Below, piece by piece: positions 15,735-24,882 of a stretch of 64,000 nucleotides of DNA. Numbering within the stretch: position 1 is the stretch's first letter; each line of letters begins with the position of its first letter. Both the position numbers and the translations under genes were made by a program. This DNA comes from Pseudomonadota bacterium. GTDB taxonomy: Bacteria > Pseudomonadota > Gammaproteobacteria > Burkholderiales > JAJZQI01. The notes under the pieces are model-generated. The model was not told the origin of the DNA, searched no databases, and saw only the letters and a program-made list of their open reading frames with translations. The stretch is taken from the NCBI GenBank assembly GCA_021851875.1, contig JAJZQI010000002.1, forward strand, positions 1 through 64,000. The letters are read 5' to 3'.

Positions 15735-17987
15735 ATGCAAGCCCAGACGTGCGACACCTCACTGGACAAGGTTGATTACAGTCTGCTCTCCCCCGCCGAG
15801 CAGGAAAAGATTCTTCGTCTGCAGCAAGACATCCTTACCGCCGTGGCGCGTGGCGGCGACCCTGTTGAAATCGTCAATGAAGTATGCAAACTGGAAGAGC
15901 ACCTGCTGCCCAATTCCGTTGCATCCGTCATGCTCATGGACGCAGAAAGCAAACACCTCAACGTGTTCGCCGCGCCCAATGTTCCCGCTGCCGGCATCGA
16001 GCAACTGAATGGACTGGTTCCCGGCCCCGGTGCGGGCTCCTGCGGCAACGTGCTGTATCGGCGTGAACCGGTGTTTGTCGGCAATACCCTGACAGACCCG
16101 CGCTGGCAGGATCTGCGTCATCTGGCGCAAAATTTCAACATTTGCGCCTGCTGGTCCATGCCCATCTACTCCGGCGGACAAGATAAAATTATCGGCACCT
16201 TCGCCCTGTCCAGTTTCGAAAACCGCATGCCCAGTCCCTTCCACCGCAAATTGCTGGAAATCGGTGCGTCAATCGTCGGTATCGTGCTGGAACGCAGCAA
16301 GGCGCTGGAACACCTGCGCATTTTCGAGACGGCGCTGGAGGGAAGCGAAGAAGGCTTCATGATGACAGATGCCAATCAGCGCATCATTCTGGTCAACCCG
16401 GCCTTCACCCGCCATACCGGCTATTCGGCAGAGGAAACGCTGGGGAAAAAACCGGCTTTCCTGGCTTCCGGTCAACATGACACGGAATTTTACCGCTCCA
16501 TGTGGGAAAGCCTCGATAACCTCGGCCACTGGCACGGCGAGATCTACAATCGCCGCAAGAACGGCGAGGTTTTTCCGGAATGGCTGAGCATTTCCGCCGT
16601 CAAGGACAAACACGACAAGTTGACCCACTATATCGGCATTTTCTCCGATATCAGCGACCAGAAAACCGCTGAAGCCAAAATCCAGTTTCTGTCGACCCAC
16701 GATGCCCTGACCGGTTTGACCAATCGTCAGCAATTCCGCGATCGGGTCGACTTTGCCCTGAGTTTGAATGAGCATTCGCACACTCCGCTTGCCTTGCTGT
16801 CAATTGACGTCGACCACTTCAAGCTGCTGAACGAATCGCTTGGCCACTACACCGGTGATGCCGTATTGCATGAACTGGCAAACCGCCTGCAAAGCTGCGT
16901 GCCGGACACGTCCCAGCTGTCGCGCCCTGGGGGTGATGAATTTCTGATGGCCCTCACCGATGTGAGCGACACGAATCAATTAACCCGCACACTCATGCAG
17001 ATTCTGGAAAAAACAGCGCAGCCCATCAACATCGGCGGTCAGTCACTCAACCTGTCCTGCTCCATCGGCGTGGCAATCTTCCCGGATGACGGCAAAGATT
17101 TCGAAACCCTGCTGAAGAATGCCGACGCGGCCATGTATCACGCCAAAGATGCGGGCCGCAACACCTATCGTTTCTTTACCCAGCACATGAACGACAGGGT
17201 CAACGAGCACATGCGCGTTGCCCACAGCATGCCGGCCGCACTCGAAAACAACGAGTTCGTGCTGCATTATCAGCCGCAATTCGATCTGCGCAGCGGCAAA
17301 TTGATCGGCGCAGAAGCATTGATTCGCTGGAACGACCCGCGCGAAGGGCTGGTTCCGCCCGGCCGCTTTATACCCATCGCGGAGCAAAGCGGATTCATCC
17401 TCAAACTGGGGGAATGGGTTTTGCAAGAAGCCTGTCAGCAAGCCGTCAAATGGCAGAAGGCAGGTCTGCCGCCGATGCTGATGGCGGTCAACCTGTCGGC
17501 CCTGCAATTCCGCCGGGGAGACATCGCCGAGCTCGTTGCGCGCGTGCTCAAGCAATCCGGCCTGATGCCGGAACTGCTTGAACTGGAAATTACCGAATCC
17601 GTGCTCATGCACGACAGCGAGTTCATGTTGGAACAGATTCAATGTCTGAAGAAAATCGGTGTTACCCTGGCAATCGACGACTTCGGTACAGGTTACTCCA
17701 GCCTGGCATACCTGAAGAAATTCAAGGTGGACCGGCTCAAAATCGACCAGTCATTCGTGCGCGACATGACGACCGATCCTGACGACGCCGCCATCGTCAG
17801 CGCCGTGATCCAGATGGCTCATGCGCTCAACCTGCGCACTATCGCTGAAGGTGTGGAAAACCTGGAATTGCTGCAATTGCTGCGTGATTACCAGTGCCAG
17901 GAAGCCCAAGGGTTCTACTTCACCAAACCCTTGCCCGCCGAGGTATTTTTTGCCAATTACCGGCAGCCCAATCACACGGCCGGTTAA
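15735..17987 (+). CDS. GAF-PAS-GGDEF-EAL c-di-GMP turnover protein
   Basis: A 750-residue soluble signalling protein. An N-terminal GAF domain (~30-185) is followed by a PAS domain with a PAC end (~190-310; TDANQRIILVNPAFTRHTGYSAEET). The GGDEF domain (~318-478) has an intact PGGDEF near residue 398. The EAL domain (~490-745) has intact EAL near 526 and the catalytic DDFGTGYSSL loop. Both a cyclase and a phosphodiesterase activity are therefore possible; which dominates cannot be read from sequence. There are no membrane segments. The 105-bp spacer upstream suggests its own promoter. It ends convergently on the SHOCT gene, with the last 4 bases overlapping. Confidence 0.93.
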   Translation: MQAQTCDTSLDKVDYSLLSPAEQEKILRLQQDILTAVARGGDPVEIVNEVCKLEEHLLPNSVASVMLMDAESKHLNVFAAPNVPAAGIEQLNGLVPGPGAGSCGNVLYRREPVFVGNTLTDPRWQDLRHLAQNFNICACWSMPIYSGGQDKIIGTFALSSFENRMPSPFHRKLLEIGASIVGIVLERSKALEHLRIFETALEGSEEGFMMTDANQRIILVNPAFTRHTGYSAEETLGKKPAFLASGQHDTEFYRSMWESLDNLGHWHGEIYNRRKNGEVFPEWLSISAVKDKHDKLTHYIGIFSDISDQKTAEAKIQFLSTHDALTGLTNRQQFRDRVDFALSLNEHSHTPLALLSIDVDHFKLLNESLGHYTGDAVLHELANRLQSCVPDTSQLSRPGGDEFLMALTDVSDTNQLTRTLMQILEKTAQPINIGGQSLNLSCSIGVAIFPDDGKDFETLLKNADAAMYHAKDAGRNTYRFFTQHMNDRVNEHMRVAHSMPAALENNEFVLHYQPQFDLRSGKLIGAEALIRWNDPREGLVPPGRFIPIAEQSGFILKLGEWVLQEACQQAVKWQKAGLPPMLMAVNLSALQFRRGDIAELVARVLKQSGLMPELLELEITESVLMHDSEFMLEQIQCLKKIGVTLAIDDFGTGYSSLAYLKKFKVDRLKIDQSFVRDMTTDPDDAAIVSAVIQMAHALNLRTIAEGVENLELLQLLRDYQCQEAQGFYFTKPLPAEVFFANYRQPNHTAG

Positions 17988-18256
17988 TCCCCGCCCTTAC
18001 CCTGCAGATCGTCCCTTTTCTGCAGATATTCTTCCCGTGTGATCTCGCCCCTGGCGTACAACTTTTGCAGAATGTCCAGCGAGGTTTCCCGTTCGGGCAA
18101 TTGTCCGGCTTGCCGCTCCTGGCGTGCTCGCCCAAGCAGATATTTAAGCAGGGCCAGCACCAGCAGAATAGGAATGGCCCAAACCAGGATCATTCCCAAA
18201 CCGCCGAACAGCATGCCGCCCCCGAACATCCATCCGTGATCATAGGGTCCATACAT
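17984..18256 (-). CDS. Small membrane protein with C-terminal SHOCT domain
   Basis: A 90-residue protein. It has a Gly/Met-rich N terminus (MYGPYDHGWMFGGGMLFGG), one membrane helix (about residues 18-40) and a C-terminal SHOCT motif (LDILQKLYARGEITREEYLQKRDDL). ATG 18256 is chosen because GGGGGC precedes it and the N terminus matches similar proteins; the frame stays open for 19 more codons. Such proteins are common in copper and other metal resistance clusters, with unknown function. It lies 230 bp downstream of copB and may have its own promoter. Confidence 0.8.
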   Translation of the reverse strand: MYGPYDHGWMFGGGMLFGGLGMILVWAIPILLVLALLKYLLGRARQERQAGQLPERETSLDILQKLYARGEITREEYLQKRDDLQGKGGD

Positions 18257-18486
18257 ATTGCCCCCTCGGCCAGTCCGGCCGACTAAACCTGAACCAGCCA
18301 GGCTATTGCGCACTGTGTAAACATACCGTCACCTGACCTCGGCTGCTGTGCGCGCAAACACATCAGCCGCAGGCCGATATCATCACACGCTCCTGCCAAT
18401 CATTATAGATCATCGCTTGACCAGCTTGACCAATTTGATCGTGCGATCGACGTCTCATACGGCACCGGGTTTATCTCGGCGTTCCC
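18257..18486 (-). promoter_or_regulatory. Spacer between copB and the SHOCT gene with possible promoter and tandem repeat
   Basis: No gene is visible. On the minus strand a TATAAT lies at 18407-18402. Just upstream of it is a perfect tandem 9-bp repeat, TGGTCAAGC twice (18432-18424 and 18423-18415). A palindrome GATCGTGCGATC (18437-18448) lies further up. The arrangement resembles a promoter with direct-repeat operator sites for the SHOCT gene. No good -35 hexamer is seen. Confidence 0.4.
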
Positions 18487-19227
18487 TCACCACCAGGCAC
18501 GTACACCGATGACGAATTGGGTATCGTTTACCGCTTCGTTTTCCAGACGGGCATAATCTGCCGTTCCGCCATATTTTTGCTTCCAGACAACGCCGATGTA
18601 TGGCGCCAACTCGCGGCGGATTTCATAGCGCAGACGCAAGGCCAAAGCCGCCGATGACAGGCCCGAACCCAAACCGCGCTCCGCATCGCTTTGCCCATAC
18701 AGCTGCACCTCAGCCTCCGGCATCAATACCAGGCGCTGAGTCAGCAACAGGTTGTACTCGGCCTTCAGGCGCGCAGCGGTATTGCCGCCCTGCCCAAGGT
18801 ACACGGTTGCATCGACATCAAACAGATAGGGGGCGAGGCCCTTCATTGCAAAAGCAGCCCAATCGCGCCCTGGTTTGCCCGCCACGGCCATGTCGTGCCG
18901 CACGCCGACTTGCGCATCCCAGAACGGCAACACGGCCCGGCTGTACAGCAATTCGACAGCGGACTCCTCGGTCGAACCCTTGAGCATGTCGCCCTCGGTC
19001 TTCAGCCACAGCTTGTTGATATCGCTGCCGGCCCAGGCCTGCGCTTCCCAGTACGTTACCGTACCCGCATCCGAGCTGCGCGCTTCCAGCCTGTCCAGCA
19101 TGAATTTGCTCAGCAGCGGGCTGACATGGTCATGCGCAGTGTCATGCGACATGTCCATCCCAGCCGCGCAAACGGGCAGCGCAAACAATAGTCCGCATGC
19201 CAGAATTCCGTTTTTAACGCCCATCAT
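18487..19227 (-). CDS. copB: Copper resistance protein B (outer membrane)
   Basis: A 246-residue CopB-family protein. A signal peptide (MMGVKNGILACGLLFALPVCAAG) is followed by a short HDTAHDH segment and then a predicted beta-barrel with alternating strands ending in VIGVRAWW, the aromatic C terminus typical of outer-membrane proteins. It lacks the long Met/His-rich repeat region of pseudomonad CopB and is shorter (about 330 residues there). It is thought to bind or move copper at the outer membrane with CopA. AGGGGAAA precedes ATG 19227 and 19224; an upstream ATG at 19242 overlaps the copA stop as ATGA and is an alternative start. Confidence 0.9.
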   Translation of the reverse strand: MMGVKNGILACGLLFALPVCAAGMDMSHDTAHDHVSPLLSKFMLDRLEARSSDAGTVTYWEAQAWAGSDINKLWLKTEGDMLKGSTEESAVELLYSRAVLPFWDAQVGVRHDMAVAGKPGRDWAAFAMKGLAPYLFDVDATVYLGQGGNTAARLKAEYNLLLTQRLVLMPEAEVQLYGQSDAERGLGSGLSSAALALRLRYEIRRELAPYIGVVWKQKYGGTADYARLENEAVNDTQFVIGVRAWW

Positions 19228-19238
19228 TTTCCCCTGCC

Positions 19239-21116
19239 TCATGCCACGGTCACTTCACGGAACATCCCGCCCATCATGTGATACAGCAGATGGCAGTGAT
19301 AAGCCCAGCGGCCCTGCACATCCGCCAGCACACGGTAGGACAGCGACTGCCCCGGCTTGACGCTGATAGTGTGCTTGCGCGCCTGGAAACCGCCGTCCTG
19401 GTTTTCCAGTTCGCTCCACATGCCATGCAGGTGAATCGGATGCTCCATCATGGTGTCGTTGATCAGGACAAAACGGACGCGTTCGCCGTATTGCAGCCGG
19501 ATCGGTTCCGCATCGGCATATTCCACGCCATCGAAGGACCACATGTAGCGGCGCATGTTGCCCGTCAGATGCAGCTCGATGGTCCGGCTCGGTTCGCGCG
19601 GGTCCTGCCAGCCGTCCACTGCATGCAAATCCGCATAGGTCAGCACGCGTCGGCCGTTATTGCGCAACCCGGCACCGGGGTCGTCCAGACGGGTCGAAAC
19701 CATACTAGCCTGCATGTCCACGCCGGGGCCGTTTTCCGTGACGGGATGATGCGCCACCTCCATGCTGTCCGGCTTGCGCTGGCTGGCCATATGCATGCCT
19801 TCCATGCTCGCTCCGCCGCCCATGCCAGCCATGTTGTGGCCTGCGTGCGGATTGGCCGGCACGGTGTCATGCCCCACCGAACCGTGACTCATGCCGGTGT
19901 GATCCATTGCCGCAGGCTTTTCGGCCGGCTGATCCATGCCCGGCATGTTGCCCATCTCCCCCATATCATGCTGGGCCATGCCCATGTCAGCCATGGTCAG
20001 AATGGGCACTGAATCCATCGGCGGCACCTCGGCAGCCAGTCCGGCACGAGGAGCCAGTGTGCCGCGGACGTAGCCGGAGCGATCTATCGACTGGGCAAAA
20101 ATCGTGTAGGCGCTGTCGTCCGTCGGCTGGACAATCACATCATACGTCTCCGCCACCCCCATGCGGAATTCATCCACCGTCACCGGATGAACGTCCTGGC
20201 CGTCAGCCGCGACCACGGTCATTTGCAGCCCCGGTATGCGCACATCGAAATAGCTCATCGCCGAGCCGTTGATGAACCGCAGACGCACGCGCTCGCCCTG
20301 GCGGAACAGGCCGGTCCAGTTGCCGGCAGGCGTAATGCCGTTCATCAGATAGGTATAGGTTGCGCCCGTCACATCGACAAGGTCGCGCGGGCTCATGCGC
20401 ATGCTGTCCCACATGGCGCGCTCCTGCCAGGCGGCGGACCAGCCCTTCTCCCCGGCTTCGCGCAGAAAATCCGCCAGCGTCGGTTTGACATAGTTGTAGT
20501 AACCGTCGCCCTTTTTCAGGTTGGCAAACACTCGATTGGGATCTTCATCCGTCCAATCGGTCAGCATAACCACATAGTCGCGCTCTGCCGAATAACGTGC
20601 CTGATCGCGCGGCTCGATCACCAGTGGAGCATATAGACCAGTCTGCTCCTGGTAGCCGGAATGGCTGTGATACCAGTAGGTGCCGCTCTGGCGCACTTGG
20701 AAACGGTAAGTAAAGGTCTCTCCCGGGGCTATGCCTTTGAACGTCAACCCAGGGACCCCATCCATATCGTTCGGCAGAATAATGCCGTGCCAGTGAATCG
20801 ACGTACTGTGATTCAAACGGTTGGTCACACGGATGGTCACCGTATCCCCTTCGCGCCAGCGTAGCGTCGGCCCGGGGATCTGGCCGTTGATCGCCGTGGC
20901 CATGCGCGGCTGGCCGGTAAAATTGACGGGGATTTCACTGATTTCCAGATTGAACTCGGTGCCGCGCAACTCCTGTGGCCGGCTAGCGGAGTTGAACGCC
21001 CAGGCCGACTGGTTTGCCAGTCCCAAACCGAACAAGGCGCCGCCCAAAGCCAAGCCCTGTACGAACCGCCGCCGGGATAAGTTAGCGGGCACTTGCAATG
21101 CGATCTCGTGTCTCAT
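19239..21116 (-). CDS. copA: Periplasmic multicopper oxidase CopA
   Basis: A 625-residue CopA-type multicopper oxidase. A Tat signal with SRRRFVQG (residues 14-21) and an AWA cleavage region precede three cupredoxin domains. Copper ligands are visible in STSIHWHGI, GTYWYHSHSG, HPIHLHGMW and the C-terminal AYHCHLLYHMMGGM. A Met/His-rich insert (~370-460, for example MGEMGNMPGMDQ and GMSHGSVGHD) should bind extra Cu(I). It likely oxidises Cu(I) to Cu(II) in the periplasm. It sits mid-operon between the Met-rich protein and copB. Confidence 0.95.
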   Translation of the reverse strand: MRHEIALQVPANLSRRRFVQGLALGGALFGLGLANQSAWAFNSASRPQELRGTEFNLEISEIPVNFTGQPRMATAINGQIPGPTLRWREGDTVTIRVTNRLNHSTSIHWHGIILPNDMDGVPGLTFKGIAPGETFTYRFQVRQSGTYWYHSHSGYQEQTGLYAPLVIEPRDQARYSAERDYVVMLTDWTDEDPNRVFANLKKGDGYYNYVKPTLADFLREAGEKGWSAAWQERAMWDSMRMSPRDLVDVTGATYTYLMNGITPAGNWTGLFRQGERVRLRFINGSAMSYFDVRIPGLQMTVVAADGQDVHPVTVDEFRMGVAETYDVIVQPTDDSAYTIFAQSIDRSGYVRGTLAPRAGLAAEVPPMDSVPILTMADMGMAQHDMGEMGNMPGMDQPAEKPAAMDHTGMSHGSVGHDTVPANPHAGHNMAGMGGGASMEGMHMASQRKPDSMEVAHHPVTENGPGVDMQASMVSTRLDDPGAGLRNNGRRVLTYADLHAVDGWQDPREPSRTIELHLTGNMRRYMWSFDGVEYADAEPIRLQYGERVRFVLINDTMMEHPIHLHGMWSELENQDGGFQARKHTISVKPGQSLSYRVLADVQGRWAYHCHLLYHMMGGMFREVTVA

Positions 21117-21224: not shown

Positions 21225-21524
21225 TTATTTGGATTGTGGCTGCACCTGACCCTGGCCGTTCATCTGCATCTGCCCGCCCATGCTGCCCGGGGCCATCTGC
21301 TCGCCCGGCCCCATATTCATGCGACCGTTACCATTCATTTTCATGCCGTTCATATTACCCTGCTGCATGGCCTGGGTACCGCTGGCAGGCATGTTCTGCA
21401 TCCCATGGTGCATATCCATTTGCCCCATGCCCGGCATATTGGCCATACCCGTTTGGGCATGGGCCGGCAAAGCGATAAAGCCGGTTACAACAATAAAAGT
21501 CATGATCAAGCGAGTTTTACACAT
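21225..21524 (-). CDS. Small methionine-rich periplasmic protein (putative copper binder)
   Basis: A 99-residue protein with a signal peptide (MCKTRLIMTFIVVTGFIALPAHA). The mature part of about 76 residues is low in complexity and holds 17 Met, many in MxM or MxxM spacing (GMGQMDMHHGM, GMKMNGNGRMNM), plus Gly, Gln and Asn. It has no other domain. Such sequences bind Cu(I) through thioethers. It stands between the DUF411 gene and copA, so a role as a periplasmic copper buffer or donor to CopA is likely, by inference. I know no established gene name for it. Confidence 0.8.
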   Translation of the reverse strand: MCKTRLIMTFIVVTGFIALPAHAQTGMANMPGMGQMDMHHGMQNMPASGTQAMQQGNMNGMKMNGNGRMNMGPGEQMAPGSMGGQMQMNGQGQVQPQSK

Positions 21525-21562: not shown

Positions 21563-22006
21563 TCAATGTTTTGCATAGACGCGATAACTCGCGTCACCCT
21601 GTACCAGCAGTGTGTCATAAGGCACGGCATACGCCCCTTCCATGCCGGGCGAGCCCGGCGGCATGGAAGGTACCGCGAGACCGATCGCCTGCGGCCGTTC
21701 CTTGAGCAGGCGCCAGATATCGGCGGCAGGCACATGGCCCTCGATCACATAGCTGCCAATTTTGGCACTATGACAGGCGGCGAACTGGTTTGGCATACCC
21801 AGCCTGTGCCGCTCGGTCGTCACGTTGGCGACATCATGAGCCCGTACGGCGAATCCGGCCTGCTGCAAATGCTCAATCCATTTATTGCAGCAACCGCAGT
21901 GGGGACTTTTGTATACCTCCACGGTATCCGCCAACCCACTGGCCTGCGCATTCCCAAGCAACAGAATGAGCATAGCAACAAATATACTTGTTTGTTTGAT
22001 CATCAT
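21563..22006 (-). CDS. DUF411 (CopG-like) metal-binding protein
   Basis: A 147-residue protein. A signal peptide (MMIKQTSIFVAMLILLLGNAQA) precedes a DUF411 domain with the metal-site motif SPHCGCCNKW (Cys 37, 39, 40). Later His/Cys residues lie in FAACHSAKIGSYVIEGHVPA. DUF411 proteins accompany copper and silver resistance genes and are thought to bind metal in the periplasm. ATG 22006 (next to ATG 22003) follows AGGA; the frame is open 20 codons further. It is probably the first gene of the DUF411-Met-rich-copA-copB operon, with a cop-box-like repeat 64 bases upstream. Confidence 0.87.
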   Translation of the reverse strand: MMIKQTSIFVAMLILLLGNAQASGLADTVEVYKSPHCGCCNKWIEHLQQAGFAVRAHDVANVTTERHRLGMPNQFAACHSAKIGSYVIEGHVPAADIWRLLKERPQAIGLAVPSMPPGSPGMEGAYAVPYDTLLVQGDASYRVYAKH

Positions 22007-22069
22007 TATTCCTGGTCCACGCTCAATAAGGATCATAACGTACACTCTTCGACAGAAGACCGACAACCG

Positions 22070-22087
22070 GATTACAAAACGGTAATC
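22070..22087. promoter_or_regulatory. Cop-box-like inverted repeat (putative CopR site) before the copAB operon
   Basis: GATTAC-N6-GTAATC, a perfect 6-bp inverted repeat with a 6-base spacer, upstream of the DUF411 gene. The identical arms recur at 22765-22782 in front of copR. The TTAC-N6-GTAA core is like known CopR/CusR-class operators. Confidence 0.7.
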
Positions 22088-22112
22088 GATTTTGCCGCCA
22101 CGTCAGCTCTGT

Positions 22113-22673
22113 TCAATGATTTTCAGAAGATGCATGGTCACTTTCATGCATATGCTCCATGTCTTCATCTGGCGGCGCCTTGGCAAGCATATCCCTGTAC
22201 TGCGCATCCGTCATATCGGGCAGCTGCTGCAAGAATGCCACCATGCTCCAAATGGTTTCATCATCGTGCGTTGCCCCCCATGCAGGCATCGCGGTCATTT
22301 TAATCCCGTGTTTGATCACCCAAAATGCTTCACGCGGATCCAGGCGAACCTTGGTCAGATCCGGTGGTTGTGGATAAAGTCCAGTGCGCAACTCGGTATT
22401 TTTCACGCCCGGCGCCAAGTGGCAGGACGTGCACATGGCTGCATATTGTCCCGCCCCCCTGAGCACAACATGAGGATCATTCAGATCAATCGCAACAACT
22501 GTCTTTTCCGCATACCGCTCGACCGAAGACGCACGCGCCTTCTTCAACACTTCACTGGTAAGTCGCCAATGCGGGCTGTCGGCCCCCACATTATAGAAAC
22601 CAAACCCGATGTACACGCCCGCCGCCAACCCAAGCAGCACAAACACGGCCAATATTCCTCTGCAATACCTCAT
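22113..22673 (-). CDS. Membrane-anchored c-type cytochrome of the copper locus
   Basis: A 186-residue protein with an uncleaved or signal-like N-terminal helix (about residues 6-26). A single cytochrome c domain has heme motif CTSCH (81-85) and a likely distal Met in KMTAMPAWG (Met129). The C-terminal tail is rich in acid, Met and His (DEDMEHMHESDHASSENH) and could bind metal. ATG 22673 follows AGGGAGGG; ten extra codons upstream are possible. It is transcribed away from copR, and the cop-box-like repeat lies between them. A role in electron transfer to or from CopA, or in sensing, is speculative. Confidence 0.85.
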   Translation of the reverse strand: MRYCRGILAVFVLLGLAAGVYIGFGFYNVGADSPHWRLTSEVLKKARASSVERYAEKTVVAIDLNDPHVVLRGAGQYAAMCTSCHLAPGVKNTELRTGLYPQPPDLTKVRLDPREAFWVIKHGIKMTAMPAWGATHDDETIWSMVAFLQQLPDMTDAQYRDMLAKAPPDEDMEHMHESDHASSENH

Positions 22674-22764
22674 ACGCCCTCCCTCCAAGTTTTGGACTGC
22701 CATTATTAAACGACGGATTTGTCGTTATCATGACTCGCCTGTTCGGTCTCAACACTGACAAGCA

Positions 22765-22782
22765 GATTACAAATCTGTAATC
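22765..22782. promoter_or_regulatory. Cop-box-like inverted repeat between cytochrome gene and copR
   Basis: Second copy of GATTAC-N6-GTAATC, 38 bases before the copR start. It could serve both the copRS operon (plus) and the cytochrome gene (minus). A further inverted repeat of the same geometry, AACGAC-N6-GTCGTT, lies at 22709-22726. Confidence 0.7.
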
Positions 22783-22819
22783 TTTTCCATCCTTGCAACA
22801 GACGGGCGATAATAGCCAC

Positions 22820-23497
22820 ATGAAAATCCTGATCGTAGAAGACGAAGTCAAAACCGGCACCTACCTCAAGCAGGGCCTGAGCGAGGCAGGTTTCGTCACC
22901 GACCTGGCGGCCAACGGCATTGACGGACAGCACCTCGCGCTGACGGAAAACTACGACCTGCTCATTCTCGACGTCATGCTCCCCGGCCTGGACGGCTGGA
23001 CGATCCTGCGCTCCCTGCGCACAGCGGGCAAACACATGCCGGTGCTCTTTCTCACCGCCCGCGACCAGGTCGATGACCGTGTCAAAGGCCTGGAACTCGG
23101 CGCGGACGACTACCTGATCAAGCCCTTCGCCTTTTCCGAACTGCTCGCGCGCGTTCGCACCCTCTTGCGCCGCGGCAAGACCGCCGAAGCGGAAATGCTG
23201 AGCCTGGCCGACCTCGAAGTCGACCTGATTCGCCGCCGTGCTGTTCGCCATGGGCAACGCATCGACCTCACTGCCAAAGAATTTGTCCTGCTCACCCTGT
23301 TTCTGCGCCGACAGGGCGAAGTGCTGTCGCGCACCCTGATCGCCTCGCAGGTATGGGACATGAATTTCGACAGCGATACGAATGTGGTGGAAGTGGCCGT
23401 GCGCCGCTTGCGCGGCAAAATCGACGAGCCGTTCGAGCCCAAGCTGATCCACACCGTGCGCGGTATGGGTTACGTGATGGAATTGCGCGACGACTGA
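22820..23497 (+). CDS. copR: Copper response regulator (OmpR/CusR type)
   Basis: A 225-residue response regulator. The receiver domain has acidic pocket VEDE, phospho-acceptor Asp51 ([14 protein letters not shown]) and Lys in LIKPFAF. The C-terminal OmpR-type winged helix has the family's [13 protein letters not shown] and RRLRGKID. It is close to CusR/CopR/PcoR. ATG 22820 is used; an in-frame start 9 codons upstream has no support. It should bind the GATTAC-N6-GTAATC repeats and activate the copper operons. The sensor kinase gene follows after 2 bases. Confidence 0.93.
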
Positions 23498-23499
23498 AC

Positions 23500-24882
23500 A
23501 TGCGCTCAATCACCTTTCGTCTTGCCTCGCTGTTTGCCCTGGCCACCCTGCTCGTGCTGGCCAGTATTGCTTATTTCTTAAGCCGTTCCGTCGAAACCCA
23601 CCTGGCGGAAATGGACTGGACCGAGATCTACGGCAAATGGCAACTCACCAGCAACCTCGTGCAGCAAATTCGCACCCCCGCCGACAAAAAAGCTTTTCCC
23701 GCCCTGCTGCAATCCGCTTTGGTGGGGCATCCCTATCTGTCGGTCGCCGTCGACACGCAGGCGGGCGCTACACTCTTTGCCAGCAGTCATTTCAGCTTCC
23801 CGGCTGGCCATGCGGCGGCTGCCGCCAACGGCCAGCCGCAATTCGCTTCCATGTTGACCTGGCAGCGCCATGGCGACGTATTCCGCGGCATTGCGGCAAA
23901 AACCGCGTCGGCGGAGCCCGGTGGGCCCATCTATATCATCCGTATTGCCGTGCAGACCGAGGAACACCGGCGCTTTCTGGCACACTTCCATCACATGCTG
24001 CTGCTGGCCCTGCTGTTCGGCATGAGCACATCTGCCGGCCTGGGCTGGTTCATCGCCCGCCGCGGCCTTCTGCCCATCAGGCACATGGCCGGCGTAGCGG
24101 GAAAGATTTCCGCCAGCCAACTGGCCGAACGCCTGGAAATTGATAGCGTCCCGCAGGAGCTGCACGATCTGGCCATCGCCTTTAATGACATGCTGGCACG
24201 GCTGGAAAACGCCTTCCAGCGCCTGTCGGATTTTTCTGCCGACATCGCGCACGAGCTGCGTACCCCCATCAACAATCTCATCATCCAATCCCAGGTGGCC
24301 CTGTCGCAAAACCGCACGAATGATGAGTATCGCGATACGCTGGCCTCCAATCTGGAAGAATTCGACCGGCTTGCCCGCATGATCTCCGACATGCTCTTCC
24401 TGGCCAAGGCGGATAACGGCCTGATGACCACGGAACAGGCAGACGTGGATCTGACCAATGAAATAGGACATCTGCTTGAGTATTTTTCTCCCGTGATGGA
24501 GGAGCAGAACGTCAAAGTGGTCATGTCAGGCACCGGCAGAGTCCGCGGCGATCGCATCATGCTGCAAAGAGCGCTGGCCAATCTGCTCTCCAACGCCATC
24601 ACCCACACTCCACCAGGAGGCGCAATACAGGTACGGCTGCAACAGCAGGCGCAACAACTGCAGATTGCCATCCAAAATCCTGGGCAAGGCATTCCGCAAG
24701 AGCAGCTGGACAGAATATTCGACCGCTTCTACCGCCTGGACCCGTCCCGTCGAGCCTCGCCCGACGGAGCCGGCCTTGGCCTGGCGATCACCCAGAGCAT
24801 TATCAGGGCGCACAATGGAACAATCACTGTGACATCGCGAGATGGCATGACAATTTTTATTGTCACGCTCCCAATGCAGTAA
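23500..24882 (+). CDS. copS: Heavy-metal sensor histidine kinase (CusS/CopS type)
   Basis: A 460-residue membrane kinase. TM1 (about 10-30) is followed by a periplasmic sensor loop (~31-160) and TM2 (about 165-188). Then come HAMP, the H-box ADIAHELRTPINNL, N-box LANLLSNAITHTPPGG, and G-boxes (DRIFDRFYRLD, GAGLGLAI). The loop has His residues in SSHFSFPAGHAAAA that could ligand copper. ATG 23500 begins two bases after copR stops; the frame is open upstream inside copR only as an overlap. It pairs with CopR. Confidence 0.93.
   Translation: MRSITFRLASLFALATLLVLASIAYFLSRSVETHLAEMDWTEIYGKWQLTSNLVQQIRTPADKKAFPALLQSALVGHPYLSVAVDTQAGATLFASSHFSFPAGHAAAAANGQPQFASMLTWQRHGDVFRGIAAKTASAEPGGPIYIIRIAVQTEEHRRFLAHFHHMLLLALLFGMSTSAGLGWFIARRGLLPIRHMAGVAGKISASQLAERLEIDSVPQELHDLAIAFNDMLARLENAFQRLSDFSADIAHELRTPINNLIIQSQVALSQNRTNDEYRDTLASNLEEFDRLARMISDMLFLAKADNGLMTTEQADVDLTNEIGHLLEYFSPVMEEQNVKVVMSGTGRVRGDRIMLQRALANLLSNAITHTPPGGAIQVRLQQQAQQLQIAIQNPGQGIPQEQLDRIFDRFYRLDPSRRASPDGAGLGLAITQSIIRAHNGTITVTSRDGMTIFIVTLPMQ

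Follow-up and report, generated by a model that had tools for sequence, protein, structure and literature searches.

A polar array of half-sites adjoins the predicted CopR operators of a cytochrome gene and a DUF411-copA-copB operon in a Burkholderiales bacterium

Background

The locus described here lies in the window, the first 64,000 nucleotides of contig JAJZQI010000002.1. It comprises a putative two-component system, copRS, a divergently transcribed gene for a small c-type cytochrome, and a downstream operon that runs from a DUF411 gene through a gene for a Met-rich small protein to copA and copB (Table 1). The start of the cytochrome is probably the ATG at 22673, which, as read from the sequence, stands behind GGAGGG. 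DUF411 likewise appears to begin at an ATG (22006 or 22003) rather than at the TTG of the frame that opens at 22066, because the latter would overlap operator half-sites. A SHOCT-domain protein is encoded downstream of copB on the same strand (17984-18313) and may belong to the operon.

Table 1. Genes, boxes, half-sites and predicted promoter elements of the locus
Feature	Position	Strand	Remarks
copB outer-membrane protein	18487..19242	-	PF05275
copA multicopper oxidase	19239..21116	-	TIGR01480
Met-rich small protein	21225..21524	-	no Pfam or NCBIfam match
DUF411 protein	21563..22006	-	PF04214
Predicted -10 TATGAT, DUF411 operon promoter	22032..22037	-	+33 from box 22070
Second direct half-site GTCGA	22049..22053	-	DUF411 side
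Direct half-site GTCGG	22060..22064	-	DUF411 side
Predicted CopR box 1, GATTAC-AAAACG-GTAATC	22070..22087	.	upstream of DUF411
Small c-type cytochrome	22113..22673	-	PF13442; one CXXCH, His/Met-rich tail; listed ORF to 22703
Predicted -10 CATGAT, cytochrome promoter	22727..22732	-	+33 from box 22765
Second direct half-site GACCG	22744..22748	-	weaker, 3 of 5 consensus bases; 11 bp further
Direct half-site GTCAG	22755..22759	-	11 bp from box arm, cytochrome side
Predicted CopR box 2, GATTAC-AAATCT-GTAATC	22765..22782	.	divergent cytochrome/copR intergenic region
Predicted -10 GATAAT, copR promoter	22808..22813	+	+26 from box; copR-side peak +26/+27
copR response regulator	22820..23497	+	TIGR01387; ATG 22820
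copS histidine kinase, CusS sensor domain	23494..24882 (start approximate)	+	PF21085, TIGR01386

Results

Two repeats with identical arms in the copper locus

A first-pass annotation had reported the same perfect inverted repeat, GATTAC-N6-GTAATC, at two places in this locus and had called it very likely the CopR operator. Both the coordinates and the identity of the arms were confirmed. One copy separates DUF411 from the 3' end of the cytochrome gene, and the other stands in the gap from which the cytochrome and copR genes diverge; their spacers are AAAACG (22070) and AAATCT (22765). The genome-wide scan proposed in that annotation found these two exact copies only (2.68 Mb in 52 contigs, 98.75% complete), and a reversed-pattern control found none. 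Near-matches with one mismatch occur at four places; at up to two mismatches there are 83 places including the two exact ones, against 26 for the reversed control. Compared with ATKACA-N4-TGTMAT, the inverted repeat of CusR/CopR/AgrR-type operators, the box at 22765 agrees throughout and the box at 22070 departs at a single inner base, where G replaces T; in the outer arms, ATTAC-N6-GTAAT, both boxes agree exactly.

The box is conserved upstream of copR

Among 399 genomes of the order, 126 had a match to CopR at E 1e-70 or better. The order was used for sampling because a family-level draw held just two genomes. The copR loci examined were the first 60 places of the match list outside the genome itself (70-92% identity, 26 families). 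In the 400 bp before copR, 49 of these 60 loci carry ATTAC-N6-GTAAT with no more than one mismatch; the best box per locus had no mismatch in 26, one in 23, two in six, three in three and four in two. By comparison, boxes of this quality were found in 26 of 3000 mononucleotide shuffles and in none of 60 control stretches within copR. Of the 11 loci without such a box in the 400 bp, two are boundary effects, one with its box at the start codon (L192) and one with it at -460 (L217).

The spacing was checked separately by searching 109 cytochrome loci for ATTAC-Nn-GTAAT with n from 0 to 15. The N6 spacing gave five exact matches, two of which (L028 and L064) are the same site, apparently on one contig, and the other spacings gave zero to two.

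A polar array lies on one side of the box

Sites upstream of copR with at most two mismatches were aligned on the box, which gave 56 sites; four of the 60 loci had no such site and were dropped. On the side of the divergent gene, GTCAG follows at +6 to +10 (52, 49, 50, 54 and 46 of 56 for the successive bases), with G at +17 in 53 sites and at +21 in 48, and with A at +34 and T at +38 in 55 each. The half-sites ATTAC, GTAAT, GTCAG and GTYGG have their starts 11 bp apart, GTCAG beginning at +6 and GTYGG at +17. A -10-like hexamer, xAnn[AC]T, begins at exactly +33 in 52 of the 56 sites on this side. On the copR side there is little conservation and the array is absent; xAnn[AC]T begins there at +26 in 14 sites and at +27 in 22.

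An array score of at least 10 out of 14 was reached on the divergent side of 53 of the 56 sites, on the copR side of none, and in 15 of 20,000 random windows; the sites below this score were L199 (score 0) and L190 and L214 (9 each). Since the scoring scheme was chosen once the consensus of these 56 sites was known, the count of 53 is partly circular and a fairer test is given by the 16 other boxes, those with at most one mismatch that lie away from the copR start. Thirteen of these 16 have the array on one side, in a test that drew on the same loci as the consensus and took the better side of each box. The array lies to the left in 12 and to the right in one (L180); one of the 16 boxes (L217) is perhaps copR's own. 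The three boxes without an array are one inside copB (L169) and two located 1.2 kb (L182) and 1.8 kb (L200) downstream of the copR start.

Both boxes of the window carry the in-phase half-site at +6 to +10 on the promoter side (GTCAG at 22765 and GTCGG at 22070). The arrays point from 22765 to the cytochrome and from 22070 to DUF411, and the opposite sides of the two boxes score 0 and 3 of 14. The operator reading of the first-pass annotation is upheld, with the correction that the 18-bp palindrome is only part of the operator.

On the copR side, the end of the predicted -10 hexamer GATAAT is 6 nt from the copR start codon, and copR may therefore be transcribed without a leader. The same short layout from -10 to ATG is seen in L167-L170. 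Leaders are longer in most other copR orthologues, whose -10-like hexamers stand about as far from the box.

An array model recovers the two sites

A sequence-only model of the array was built from 55 sites, none of them from the genome under study (L199 was left out). When the model was run on this genome, both window sites were retrieved, at E 1.6e-6 and 1.2e-4, and were oriented to the cytochrome and to DUF411, respectively. No further site fell under E 0.01 among the 150 of 931 first-look candidates that were scored, the third match being partial (E 0.31). The two operators in the window are probably the whole CopR regulon of this genome.

Run on 12 chosen genomes, the model matched 33 sites at E ≤0.01, some of them used in training, and all 33 lie on contigs that also bear a copR match. 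Nine of these genomes have one or two array matches; G362 and G335, both of family f21, have 10 and 6 on their copR contigs. Over 24 chosen sources, 10 were matched. Beyond the order, the model retrieved, in part, the Escherichia coli hiuH promoter and Acinetobacter and Acidovorax plasmids; it missed the cusC promoter of E. coli and two loci of Burkholderia type, L092 and L112, whose copR genes have 61% identity.

The cytochrome and DUF411 as probable targets

The first-pass annotation had tied the cytochrome to the regulon through the shared repeat. That tie is firmer than could be known at the time, because the half-sites and the -10 element face the cytochrome and because in 55 of 80 loci with homologous cytochromes the gene immediately upstream, in the same orientation, is copB. 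In 61 of the 80, copA or copB lies within the stretch, and a copR of at least 55% identity does so in four.

The box at 22765 might instead serve copR autoregulation only, with the cytochrome a mere neighbour. A symmetric palindrome between divergent genes would allow for this, as would the near-constant distance of a -10 element on the copR side. Such a function would not explain the direct half-sites and the fixed -10 element on the cytochrome side, the match of the array model to the cytochrome-facing strand or the recurrent position of homologous cytochromes behind copB, and we regard it as very improbable. Our reading remains that the cytochrome is a regulon member, which these sequence comparisons support well.

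Two of the 60 copR loci, L172 and L185, also have two boxes and the gene order copR - cytochrome - DUF411. In a same-genus genome (G001, 85% complete; L167), DUF411 and copR diverge from each other directly across one common box and the cytochrome is absent there, whereas in the window the cytochrome and a second box lie between them; the cytochrome has therefore either entered or left this position. Among 17 loci with a DUF411 hit, DUF411 has its own box within 300 bp in seven and shares copR's box in three (one with two mismatches), and in the other seven no box came within one mismatch. Eight of the 17 therefore have no box of that quality before DUF411, namely these seven and the one on copR's two-mismatch box.

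In Pseudomonas aeruginosa, a DUF411 protein is listed among the copper responders in the excerpted text of PMC6444534. A cop-operon cytochrome was not found in the excerpts of PMC10304878, and in the abstracts and excerpts retrieved on copper resistance, copA/copB/CopR and c-type cytochromes we found no publication naming the cytochrome. A literature search for CopG together with DUF411, copper and cytochrome gave no match.

CopR as the probable binding regulator

CopR scored 355.7 bits against TIGR01387 (cut-off 279.2), and CopS scored 486.2 bits against TIGR01386 (cut-off 292.55) and 71.8 bits against the CusS sensor domain, PF21085 (cut-off 24.1). Assignment of CopR to the E. coli CusR equivalog NF007346 (343.1 of 420 bits) or the E. 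coli HprR equivalog NF008567 (295.4 of 353 bits) was rejected, both scores being below cut-off. CopR is thus of the same subfamily as CusR and HprR and lies outside those equivalogs. A copper response of CopRS is putative and is suggested by the neighbouring genes. A CueR scoring over the cut-off was not found in the genome (best 80.7 of 147.4 bits). The genome encodes three copper P-type ATPases that score over their cut-off, each at a distance of about 120 kb or on a different contig.

Regulators of this subfamily can share a box, as CopR, CusR and CzcR do in Pseudomonas (PMC11195947) and CusR and HprR do in E. coli (PMC9302797), in both cases according to excerpts of the papers. The boxes could then be operators of another OmpR-family regulator, whether zinc- or silver-responsive or a peroxide-responsive protein like HprR. 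We consider this very improbable, marginally more so than autoregulation alone, given that the boxes adjoin copR and copper genes and that no second CopR-type regulator was found in the genome, where the next response regulator is at most 41% identical to CopR. CopR is therefore the only obvious binder.

That the repeats are a chance or duplicated palindrome devoid of regulatory function is barely credible: the window is indeed not enriched at up to three mismatches (14 found, 11.7 expected), so the exact copies alone are informative, but none of these appeared in 100 dinucleotide shuffles of the window, which holds two, and the box is kept upstream of copR across the sampled families.

Discussion

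The sites, their conservation, their polarity, the fixed spacing and their uniqueness in the genome are direct observations. The view that the box is very likely the CopR operator is now supported by its presence upstream of most copR orthologues, by the published boxes of the subfamily, by the absence from the genome of any other closely related regulator and by the recovery of both sites with the model. From these sequence comparisons we hold it to be highly probable that both repeats are CopR operators that activate the cytochrome and DUF411 promoters through directional arrays.

Binding, phosphorylation, activation and copper response enter the following scheme as predictions. CopS would sense periplasmic copper and render CopR active. 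In P. aeruginosa, CopS is a copper-blocked phosphatase (excerpts of PMC10141476 and PMC7763554), and the signalling step in this bacterium could work in the same manner. Active CopR would bind the inverted repeat together with the direct half-sites that extend from it, in 11-bp phase, towards the structural gene as far as the -35 region, and would recruit RNA polymerase at a -10 element set 33 bp from the box. The array at 22765 would in this way activate the cytochrome gene and the array at 22070 the DUF411-Met-rich-copA-copB operon, and the box at 22765, read from its other side, may provide for copR autoregulation.

A wider proposal, towards which we incline with some reserve, is that CopR-family promoters follow one old, rigid and polar plan of one inverted half-site and three direct half-sites in 11-bp phase with a -10 element at 33 bp. 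The palindrome would be the upstream half of the operator, the direction of the array would mark the activated divergent gene, and the cytochrome would be a primary target of the copper regulon. Beyond the order this claim is carried by few promoters, since the model missed cusC, L092 and L112 and matched the plasmids and hiuH in part.

If the proposal holds, the array turns a symmetric palindrome into a directional promoter code. One could then assign the targets of CopR-type regulators to the right strand and set aside boxes that occur by chance. There is also a testable argument for counting the small cytochrome, often found next to copB, among the copper-resistance genes.

Comparison with known operators

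Published work already covers the box, the regulator, the divergent layout and, at some operators, additional direct half-sites; against the literature on CopR direct repeats, half-sites and cop boxes, the near-invariant polar geometry is a modest addition. The comparisons below draw on excerpts of the cited papers and on our own inspection of promoters.

There is a close likeness to AgrR of Cupriavidus metallidurans (PMC7380067), whose box, ATKACANNNNTGTMAT, is an inverted repeat in a divergent cop/copR layout. In the copA2-copR2 region the promoter-proximal arm is the better conserved and direct half-sites follow in phase, as they do here. The AgrR footprint at copA2 extends from -74 to -40, and mutation of the promoter-proximal direct repeat much reduced activation by AgrR. 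The copA2 side was upregulated and the copR2 side was not. The footprint is centred at about -57 of copA2 and about -43 of copR2; on the assumption that transcription begins 7 nt beyond the -10 element, the window boxes would be centred near -54 relative to the cytochrome and DUF411 transcription starts and near -47 relative to that of copR. Extra in-phase direct repeats occur at some AgrR operators, whereas in the order sampled here two half-sites and a fixed -10 element are found in nearly all 56 sites. The targets here, unlike those at copA2-copR2, include a cytochrome.

In E. coli, CusR and HprR have the common box CATTACAAAATTGTAATG (PMC9302797), and the hiuH promoter resembles the present sites in this box (L226 and L227 are the E. 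coli cusC and hiuH loci). By eye, hiuH has GTAAG at +6 and TATCCT at +33, with a weak third half-site, and cusC reads ATGAC-N6-GTCAT-N6-GTCAC-N6-ATCAG with TAAAGT at +33, although its arm sequences differ. The target genes there differ from those described here, with no cytochrome among them. The Acinetobacter plasmid has, also by eye, GTCAC, GTTCA and TATTGT at the matching array positions, and the Acidovorax plasmid fits the array in part.

In Pseudomonas, one palindrome is common to CusR, CopR and CzcR (PMC11195947) and, as in our locus, lies between an operon (pco) and the regulator gene (PMC11195947, PMC12428095). Several related regulators meet there at one site, whereas one was found here. 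The half-sites of P. putida are written TGACA (PMC11195947, PMC12428095) and differ in this from ours, but the extended footprints of CopR1 and CopR2, with several half-sites (PMC12428095), are alike in plan. The cop box of P. syringae is likewise an inverted repeat, bound by CopR within 16 bp at copper-inducible promoters (Mills 1994, cited in PMC7380067).
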